Shown in pieces: positions 47,072-49,516 of a stretch of DNA of 64,000 bases; the first letter of the stretch is position 1; every line of letters starts with the position of its first letter. The stretch is taken from contig NZ_AOJL01000013.1 of assembly GCF_000337035.1 (NCBI RefSeq), positions 1-64,000 of the forward strand, written 5' to 3'. Source of the DNA: Halorubrum coriense DSM 10284 (GTDB lineage Archaea > Halobacteriota > Halobacteria > Halobacteriales > Haloferacaceae). Below the pieces are notes generated by a model, which worked only from the letters and a program-made list of their open reading frames with translations, made no database searches and was not told the origin of the DNA. The translations under genes were made by a program, and so were the position numbers.

Positions 47072-48298
47072 TCAGCGGATGACGTCGAGCCCGTTGTTCT
47101 TCTCGATCTGGTCGCTCCCGCCGTCGGACTCCCACGCGCTGCGGTCGCTGCCGCCGGAGACCGCCGGTTCGCCCCGGCCACCGGCGGCTTCGTTCGCCTC
47201 GGCCGCCCGCTGGCGCGAGTCGCCGAGGTCCTCGCCGTTGACCGCGGCGCGGGACTTGTCGGCCTGCTTCTGAGTGGAGGGGCCGAGCACCTGTGCGCTC
47301 TGGACGCCCGTCATGATCGCCATGACGCGGACCTTCCCCTTGTACTCCTCCTGGATGCGCGCGCCCCAGATCACGTTGGCGCTCGCCTCCAGCCGCTCGG
47401 TGATGTTGTTCGCGATCCCCTCGGCCTCCTTCAGCGTGAGGTCCGGACCGCCCGTGATGTGGACGAGCCCGCCGGAGGCCCCGCGGTAGTCGACGTCGAG
47501 CAGCGGGTGGTTCATCGCGTCGTTGACCACCTCTTGGGTCTTGTTCTTGTCTTGCGTCTCGCCGACGAGCATGACCGCGACGCCGCCCTGATTCATGATC
47601 GTCGACATGTCCGCGTAGTCGAGGTTGATGAGGCTCGGTTGGGTGATCGTCTCGGAGATCCCCTTCACCGTCTCTGCGATGATCTGGTCCATCACGGAGA
47701 ACGCCTTCCCGATCGGCAGGTTCGGGACGTAGTCGAGGAGGCGGTTGTTGTCGAGGACGATGATCGAGTCGGCCTCGTTGCGGAGGTCTTCGAGTCCTTC
47801 CTCGGCTTTCACCGTGCGGGCGCGCTCAACGTTGAACGGCGTCGACACCATCCCGACGACGATAGCGCCCTGCTCTTTGGCGATCTTCGAGACCACCGGC
47901 GCAGCGCCGGTGCCCGTGCCGCCGCCCATCCCGGCGGTGACGAAGACGAGGTCGGCGTCCCCGAGCACCTCTTTGATCGTCCCCTGGGCCATCTCCGTCG
48001 CGCGCTCGCCCATCTTGGGGTCGCCGCCAGCACCGAGCCCCTGCGTGAGCGACTTGCCCACGAGGATCTTGGTGTCGGCCTCGATCATCTTGAGGTGCTG
48101 TTTGTCCGTGTTAATGGCGACGGTGTCGGCACCGTCGACGCCGATGTTATACAGACGGTTGACCGTGTTGTTCCCGGCGCCGCCGGCACCGACGATGACG
48201 ATCCGGGGGTCCCCGAACTCGTCGTCGTCCATGTCGACATCCATGTCGCGCTTCTCCGCTTCCGCGTTGTCGAGGGCGTCCTGAACGAGATCTTGCAT
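47072..48298 (-). CDS. ftsZ2: cell division tubulin homologue FtsZ2
   Basis: A 408-residue FtsZ. The GTP-binding segments [14 protein letters not shown], the tubulin signature [12 protein letters not shown], and T7 loop [11 protein letters not shown] are intact, and the C-terminal tail ends KNNGLDVIR. The N-terminus [17 protein letters not shown] and the CdrS/CdrL context identify it as FtsZ2 rather than FtsZ1; in Haloferax FtsZ2 drives ring constriction. It starts four nt after the cdrS stop, so the two are one transcript. Confidence 0.93.
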
Positions 48299-48302
48299 CA
48301 GT

Positions 48303-48482
48303 TTACACCTTCGCCCAGCTGCGGTTGCGGCCGCGCTCGTCGCGCTCGCCGTCCTGTTCGTTCAACATGTCGCGGACGGCCGACCGGATCGCCTCGCTCC
48401 GGTTCGGGAACTCGCCCGTCTCCACCATCTGTTCGACCTCGTCGATCTGCTGTTTCGGAATTCGTAGTGTCACACGCTCCAT
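48303..48482 (-). CDS. cdrS: ribbon-helix-helix cell-division regulator CdrS
   Basis: A 59-residue RHH protein: strand [17 protein letters not shown], helix A, the turn [18 protein letters not shown], and a polar basic tail ending RSWAKV. It is too short for many gene callers but matches, in size and position directly before ftsZ2, the haloarchaeal CdrS that controls ftsZ2 and cell division. Four nt separate it from ftsZ2. Its promoter region contains a repeated GTAAGAC operator array. Confidence 0.88.
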
Positions 48483-48494
48483 TGTATTCCCCCG

Positions 48495-48683
48495 GTAAGA
48501 CGGCGTCCACGCAACGCGTGTGTCTTACAGTCCGCAATCGCCCGGGAACGGGGTCTCACCCCGATCCGGACGGTCGCTGTAAGACGACCGTCTTACGCAA
48601 TTTGAATCACCGAGGCTGTTCATATAAAACTATCGGCGGTTGTAAGACAAACGAGTCGTTCGCCGTATACGCGCGCTTACAAC
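48495..48683 (-). promoter_or_regulatory. cdrS-ftsZ2 promoter with GTAAGAC operator array
   Basis: The TATA-like GTTTTATATG (48621-48630, minus strand) predicts a start near 48600. GTAAGAC, in either orientation, occurs at 48495-48501, 48522-48528, 48579-48585 with 48590-48596 (an 18-bp palindrome GTAAGACG-AC-CGTCTTAC) and 48642-48648, with a partial copy near 48675-48683. The palindrome sits at the predicted transcription start and the 48642 site just upstream of the TATA box. Confidence 0.75.
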
Positions 48684-48686
48684 CTG

Positions 48687-49322
48687 TTATCTGTCTTTCA
48701 GTACGTCCGCGGCCGGGGTGCGACGCCCGCAGCCCGGGCAGAACGCCCAGTCGCTTCGGAGCTCGTCACCGCACTCACAGAACGCCCGGTGAGACTGCTT
48801 CTCGCCGCAGTTCGGACAGTAGACGTGTTCTCCGGGGACCGTCTCGCCGCAGCCGCCGCAGGCGCTCTCACGCGGCTGCGCGCTCGGCCCGTCCGGGGGA
48901 CTCCCCGCGCTCGCGTCCGTCTTACGCGCACTCGGCTCCGCGTCATCAGTCGTCTCACGCGCCACACGGACGGCTTTCTCCGGGTCGCTCGATCCGGCGG
49001 ACGGCGCGTCGAGCGTGACGTTTACGTTGATGTCGCCGGGTTCCCCGGTCGCACCTGGGGGCGCAGCAGCGCCGCATGCCGGGCCGATCCGGTCGTCGAG
49101 CGCGGCGTCGAGCCGCTCTGCGATCAGCTCGTCGACGCGGCCCGCGAGTACGTCGTCGACGCTTTCCGTCGAGGCATCCGACGCGTCGGACGCGCTCGCC
49201 TCCGCGTCGCCCTCGTCGAGATGCGCTCGGAGCGCTTCCCGCATCACCTCGCTCTTGGAGGCGTCACACGCTTCCAGGCGGTCGACAAGGTCATCGTCCG
49301 CTCGGAAGGTGATCTTGCTCAT
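48687..49322 (-). CDS. cdrL: RHH/zinc-ribbon cell-division regulator CdrL
   Basis: A 211-residue protein with an N-terminal RHH domain (MSKITFRADDDLVDRLE, then SKSEVMREALRAHLDEG). An acidic Ala/Ser-rich linker follows, then a C-terminal double zinc ribbon: CGGCGE with CPNCGE, and CECGDE with CPGCGRR. Size and position match CdrL, the longer partner of CdrS. The ATG at 49322 gives the RHH start; the longer frame is arginine-rich. It may bind the GTAAGAC array downstream, which lies between it and cdrS. Confidence 0.85.
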   Translation of the reverse strand: MSKITFRADDDLVDRLEACDASKSEVMREALRAHLDEGDAEASASDASDASTESVDDVLAGRVDELIAERLDAALDDRIGPACGAAAPPGATGEPGDINVNVTLDAPSAGSSDPEKAVRVARETTDDAEPSARKTDASAGSPPDGPSAQPRESACGGCGETVPGEHVYCPNCGEKQSHRAFCECGDELRSDWAFCPGCGRRTPAADVLKDR

Positions 49323-49355: not shown

Positions 49356-49490
49356 TTCCCCTGCCGCCTGACACGTTTCACGACTCGGATACGTCCGGGC
49401 GTGCGCGGACCGGCCCCGCGCCGACGCCGGCCGAACTCCGTCGGTGCGGGTCAAATCCTGCCGCGGCCGCCCGAATCGTGGTGTTTGGTC

Positions 49491-49516
49491 ACACATGTGT
49501 CTGACGCAGATTTATA
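49491..49516 (+). promoter_or_regulatory. promoter of the coiled-coil/smc operon
   Basis: A perfect 10-bp palindrome ACACATGTGT (49491-49500) lies just upstream of TTTATA (49511-49516), which is about 29 nt before the ATG at 49543. The palindrome is well placed for an activator or a repressor. This transcript diverges from cdrL. Confidence 0.55.

Follow-up and report, generated by a model that had tools for sequence, protein, structure and literature searches.

When FtsZ-bearing archaea decide to divide is an open question, and the cdrS-ftsZ2 operon of Halorubrum coriense raises it in a concrete form: which protein reads the GTAAGAC repeats upstream of cdrS, and what would it control there? 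CdrS and CdrL are, to our knowledge, the only regulators at this locus. We find it probable that CdrL uses this array as its operator for the cdrS-ftsZ2 operon and that the array is embedded in a structured leader RNA. The window, by which we mean the whole 64-kb stretch of DNA analysed, contains the following features.

49488..49505, no strand: CdrS-type palindrome GTCACAC-ATGT-GTCTGAC, one mismatch from the motif, within the divergent promoter that separates cdrL from the small coiled-coil/smc genes
48687..49322, minus strand: cdrL, with RHH, CdrL_M and double zinc ribbon (DZR) by Pfam; likely operator reader
48642..48648, minus strand: upstream half-site, cdrS sense GTCTTAC, directly above BRE/TATA and outside the cdrS transcript
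48622..48629, minus strand: TATA-like box TTTTATA, assigned from sequence
48579..48596, no strand: putative palindromic operator
48590-48596, part of the palindrome: arm1, sense GTAAGAC, exact in 120/120 loci
48586-48589: palindrome centre, between arm1 and arm2
48579-48585, part of the palindrome: arm2, sense GTCTTAC, exact in 115/120 loci
48483..48598, minus strand: predicted structured leader (5' UTR) of the cdrS-ftsZ2 message, about 116 nt, from covariance model, fold and covariation
48529-48539 / 48567-48578: arm2-arm3 pairing extension beyond the 7-mers
48522..48528, minus strand: arm3, sense GTAAGAC, RNA partner of arm2
48502..48521, minus strand: small lineage-specific hairpin between arm3 and arm4, seen in folds of many leaders
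48495..48501, minus strand: arm4, sense GTCTTAC, RNA partner of arm1, adjoining the G-rich stretch and start codon
48487..48493, minus strand: GGGGGAA stretch before the start codon, in columns at least 90% conserved in alignment A1; possible ribosome site
48303..48482, minus strand: cdrS, a 59-aa ribbon-helix-helix (RHH) protein (Pfam RHH_1, 1.9e-9)
47072..48298, minus strand: ftsZ2 (Pfam Tubulin and FtsZ_C)

The order in cdrS sense is thus half-site (48642), TATA, arm1/arm2, arm3 (48522), arm4 (48495), GGGGGAA and the cdrS ATG.

The palindrome and its promoter in Halobacteria

Exact GTAAGAC occurs seven times on either strand of the 64-kb window versus 2.8 expected, and five copies lie within 154 bp, starting at 48495, 48522, 48579, 48590 and 48642. 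The two copies outside the array are at 48919 (inside cdrL) and 46381 (elsewhere). A sequence-only reading of this DNA had listed sites at 48495, 48522, 48579-48596 and 48642; all are exact and their clustering is more significant than it first claimed. It had also described a perfect 18-bp palindrome. The palindrome is present with perfect 8-bp arms, but its 2-bp centre is not palindromic (GTAAGACG-AC-CGTCTTAC). A further partial site proposed near 48675 (GCTTAC, sense GTAAGC) falls off the conserved positions, which are -51/-52, -65 and -74 from the palindrome, and is probably a chance occurrence.

CdrS was found in 390 of the 391 genomes of the class, and the palindrome with a 4-bp centre and at most one mismatch in 321 of the 391. 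The 70 genomes without this N4 form are poor candidates for losses: the loci fetched from them nearly all have 2-, 3-, 5- or 6-bp centres, and the rest have lightly mutated arms. The 120 cdrL-cdrS intergenic regions that we collected come largely from clades that had seemed negative, with at least one species per genus added; these loci overlap phylogenetically, and kinship is controlled solely in the leaf-pair test and the tree-aware column test described below. GTAAGAC-N2..6-GTCTTAC is exact upstream of cdrS in 115 of the 120 loci, in all sampled Halobacteria families, so that the class-wide conservation the sequence-only reading had asked about is there. Its proposed genome search for further motif pairs also gave a clear answer, since the window palindrome is the sole exact copy in the 3.65-Mb genome. 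When the centre is allowed to vary, 79 of 81 Halobacteria have exactly one exact palindrome per genome, which is the single site per genome that a CdrL operator calls for. Outside Halobacteria an exact palindrome was seen in 5 of 312 other Halobacteriota genomes, a chance-like rate. A stricter four-arm pattern searched in 84,980 species gave 14 matches, all in haloarchaea, three Halobacterium strains among them; the five that were checked (three Halobacterium, one Halorussus, one Halovivax) are all directly upstream of cdrS. As a separate observation, the near-palindrome GTAATACGCTGGTCTTAC recurs away from cdrS in several genomes of family f3 (e.g. G059:C2:1103614, G114:C1:1352457, G083:C7:7682).

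The TATA-like box noticed from the sequence alone is borne out at 48622-48629, and it begins 32-33 bp before the palindrome in 104 of the 120 loci. In 118 of the 120, a purine stands two positions ahead of arm1. Taken together with the usual archaeal TATA-to-start spacing, this conserved purine 2 nt before arm1 would put the transcription start at the palindrome edge, about 32 bp below the TATA box, where the earlier reading had expected it. That reading had also noted a half-site flanking the TATA box from upstream, and this site turns out to be rigidly phased. Exact half-sites above the TATA box number 108 in 95 of the 120 loci versus 1.7 in dinucleotide shuffles and take a few preferred positions. 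In the commonest arrangement the distance from the upstream half-site to arm2 is 63 or 64 bp (sd 0.8), i.e. six helical turns. A phased half-site outside the cdrS transcript argues strongly for protein reading of DNA. Spacing is looser between arm1 and arm3 (sd 4.3) and between arm2 and arm4 (sd 6.0), which fits RNA and not a phased DNA array.

A predicted structured leader on the cdrS-ftsZ2 message

The predicted leader folds better than its shuffles (z -3.9). In the 87 leaders whose arms could be recognised, arm1-arm4 has a mean pair probability of 0.94 and arm2-arm3 one of 0.87, versus 0.04 for local pairs, and the fold combining 1-4 and 2-3 is favoured in 79 of the 87. Bases beside the 7-mers, which the half-site does not need, differ by lineage yet remain complementary. 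After arm1 and before arm4, for example, GG(U/C)...GCC is found versus GAC...GUC, a change from G/C to A/U, and beside arms 2 and 3 there is ACGGCGAA...UUCGCCGU. On a CdrL+CdrS tree, 57 edge-disjoint leaf pairs contain 30 compensatory double changes versus a permuted mean of 8.6. Permutation of the 3' side reached at most 18 in 5000 runs (0/5000 reach 30), and slid registers give few. Alignment A1 (MAFFT) has 46 both-side changes in arms 1-4/2-3 versus 24.9 when shuffled (0/500). The local hairpins 1-2 and 3-4 were considered as the functional RNA fold and set aside: in the same alignment they have 17 both-side changes versus 17.5, no covariation excess.

Two further tests are less favourable to the fold. 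The tree-aware column test, run over about 1300 pairs, has predicted pairs in all of its top three places, each with an E of only 0.35-1.2. RNAalifold on the MAFFT alignment returned the arm1-arm2 local hairpin alone, probably because the extensions are poorly aligned. With these reservations, the leader has a conserved secondary structure with compensatory changes. A covariance model finds the element in the window at 48480-48598 (E 8.7e-22) and matches 78 of 81 Halobacteria, directly upstream of cdrS where coordinates are comparable, and 0 of 312 other genomes of the phylum. An Rfam search of the locus gave no family and one chance-level snoRNA match (E 9.3). Published work on Haloferax includes an annotated 5' UTR and a cdrS mRNA of about 250 nt that is monocistronic, both compatible with a leader (PMC8406309). 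It is worth recording that in leaders of family f4 (e.g. L110, L106, L129) the arm3-arm4 hairpin has a strongly conserved GCGTCTGACAGGGGCGCG, which contains GTCTGAC and occurs in many genera.

The sequence-only reading had counted the copies at 48495 and 48522 as operator sites. Given the compensatory changes and the variable spacing, which it had missed, they are better read as RNA partners of the palindrome arms. The simplest account is that arms 1-2 and the half-site above the TATA box make up the DNA operator, and that arms 3-4 repeat the 7-mers mainly for pairing. It has to be weighed against a DNA array proper, where the upstream site, the palindrome, arm3 and arm4 would all be CdrL sites and the RNA fold a by-product of inverted repeats. 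All half-sites are indeed the same 7-mer (over the 120 loci arm1 is exact in 120, arm2 in 115, arm4 in 110 and arm3 in 78), and the arm3 variants GTATGAC and GTAAAAC also recur at the non-transcribed upstream site. However, non-7-mer bases covary as pairs solely in the 1-4/2-3 register, with no excess in slid registers or local hairpins, and the spacing of arms 3 and 4 is unphased. We consider a purely DNA-based array unlikely. A milder form of it can be accommodated: arms 3 and 4 may double as DNA sites, since arm4 varies less than pairing would require and the arm3 variants resemble those of the non-transcribed site.

Could the repeats, conversely, be leader helices only (bistable, 1-2/3-4 versus 1-4/2-3), with a palindrome that no protein binds? 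Covariation, a conserved Rfam-negative leader and four interchangeable arms are what such an element would have, but it leaves aside the half-site that most loci carry at a constant distance outside the transcript, and the published CdrL ChIP peak at this promoter. Moreover, arms 1-2 are near-invariant even where arm3 is degenerate. Arm3 or arm4 is degenerate in 33 of the 120 loci, about a quarter, and arm2 is still exact in 37 of the 42 loci with a diverged arm3, which indicates that the palindrome is kept for more than RNA pairing. A leader element with no operator function is therefore very improbable.

CdrL and CdrS as candidate readers

Which protein, then, binds the proposed operator? 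In Halobacterium salinarum, CdrL has a single reproducible ChIP site in the whole genome, upstream of cdrS-ftsZ2 (PMC7439475), and from the match to this single published peak CdrL is the likely reader of the array. Our search within openly available literature found no CdrL site sequence in the text of PMC7439475 or PMC8406309, and the published text searched reports neither a cdrL deletion nor the sign of CdrL regulation. The palindrome is an inverted repeat of a fixed half-site at a known CdrL target promoter, as an RHH operator should be. Both it and the covariance model are restricted to Halobacteria, in parallel with CdrL, which is confined to this class (PMC7439475). cdrL was recovered automatically upstream in 145 of 150 loci. 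Its strand SKITFRADDDL is nearly invariant across genera; operator and CdrL being both nearly invariant, covariation between them is unusable as evidence. The RHH part of CdrL has no sequence match in the PDB. We also considered a NikR-type metal regulator site and rejected it, because CdrL carries CdrL_M and DZR and is without the nickel-binding C-terminal domain. Since the palindrome lies over the predicted start site, CdrL may act by repressing or gating initiation.

Haloferax volcanii CdrS has 18 ChIP sites, including ftsZ1, dacZ and hisB, and a symmetrical motif; its own promoter is unlisted (PMC8406309). The published motif is given as a figure (PMC8406309), and we reconstructed a CdrS-type motif, using the promoters of ftsZ1 and hisB. 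GTCNGAC-N4-GTCNGAC or a GTNNGAC relative is present in 18 of 20 ftsZ1 promoters (17 of the GTC type, one GTGCGAC), just upstream of a TATA-like box and about -50 to -70 from the ATG (L220-L239). In two genus g6 genomes (L248, L253; g6 is taken to be Haloferax) a CdrS-type palindrome precedes hisB by about 70 bp, in agreement with the listing of hisB among the Haloferax CdrS ChIP sites (PMC8406309). In the dacZ promoters even the best CdrS-type site has 2 mismatches, so the reconstruction rests on ftsZ1 and hisB. The motif is present in 2-7 copies per genome versus 0 for a reversed control. Apart from these promoters, we noticed a second FtsZ2-like protein in one genus g6 genome (G211:C19:12198-13277); it shares 81% identity with FtsZ2 of the window.

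In every cdrS promoter a single base of each half-site separates the array motif from the CdrS type, and the array is unlikely to be a CdrS regulon site. The best assignment from these sequences is that GTCNGAC is read by CdrS and the array by CdrL. The sequence-only reading had named both proteins as users of one operator: CdrL retains its place, having its sole reproducible ChIP peak here (PMC7439475), and CdrS is left without support, as the target promoters analysed bear a different motif. Direct CdrS autoregulation through the array is hardly to be expected: CdrS is an RHH protein and its motif a sibling of the array motif, but the cdrS palindrome is at least two mismatches from the CdrS type, as is the best match in the cdrS promoter, in 120/120 loci, and that promoter is missing from the 18 Haloferax CdrS sites (PMC8406309). 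The division feedback suggested earlier is thus unlikely in its direct form and still possible through CdrL. Upstream of cdrL, a CdrS-type motif with at most 2 mismatches is found in 81 of 115 loci versus 1.3 in shuffles, which suggests a reciprocal loop where CdrS would act on cdrL and CdrL on cdrS. Neither cdrL nor smc is listed in the Haloferax CdrS ChIP table (PMC8406309), so the CdrS-on-cdrL arm of the loop is a conjecture.

A putative operator within a candidate leader RNA and known systems

We propose that at the DNA level CdrL would bind the GTAAGAC half-sites in the palindrome, about +3 to +20, and also the half-site just above BRE/TATA, six helical turns away. CdrL on both sites should bracket the promoter and could thereby prevent initiation or gate it. 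The transcript would include the palindrome, arm1 pairing with arm4 beside the start codon and arm2 with arm3 in the mid-5' UTR to give the conserved long-range fold. Lying beside the G-rich stretch and the AUG, this fold probably determines how well the FtsZ2 message is translated or how stable it is. The whole looks like an operator inside a new candidate cis-regulatory RNA. A more elaborate version is a dual-coded switch, which we put forward tentatively and regard as doubtful: the four 7-mers would be both the CdrL operator and a bistable leader (1-2/3-4 versus 1-4/2-3), the FtsZ2 dose would depend on CdrL for transcription and on the leader for translation, CdrL or its zinc ribbon might contact the RNA as well, and CdrS acting on cdrL/smc would close the loop.

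For the question of when to divide, this analysis offers a candidate operator sequence for CdrL and a related but separate one for CdrS. It also predicts a reciprocal circuit and gives the ftsZ2 message a new structured leader, present throughout a whole archaeal class. Known leader RNAs with which this one can be compared are ribosomal-protein leaders and riboswitches. With these it has in common a conserved 5' leader fold, compensatory changes and a position next to the start codon; it differs in having no Rfam match, in that its two helices share letters of the DNA operator, and in its occurrence in haloarchaea, where most mRNAs are considered leaderless. RHH operators of the NikR/MetJ/CopG kind consist of inverted half-sites (GTATGA in NikR) occupied by side-by-side dimers, with T and R/K on the DNA-reading strand. 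The array likewise has inverted half-sites, on which dimers would lie side by side, and the DNA-reading strand of CdrL also has T and R/K; this likely reader differs from NikR in domain composition.

The CdrS regulon of Haloferax volcanii (PMC8406309) is similar in having a palindromic motif for an RHH protein at division genes. The CdrS type reconstructed here, GTCNGAC-N4-GTCNGAC, is found at ftsZ1, hisB and, class-wide, cdrL/smc, and the array type GTAAGAC-N2..6-GTCTTAC at cdrS only. Closest is CdrL regulation in Halobacterium salinarum (PMC7439475), which has the same locus, the same gene order and one reproducible CdrL site per genome, upstream of cdrS-ftsZ2. The text of that study is without a motif, site map or leader, and what is added here is the site sequence, its class-wide conservation, its phasing and the RNA fold. 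One short stretch, found in nearly every haloarchaeon examined, may thus control division at two levels.
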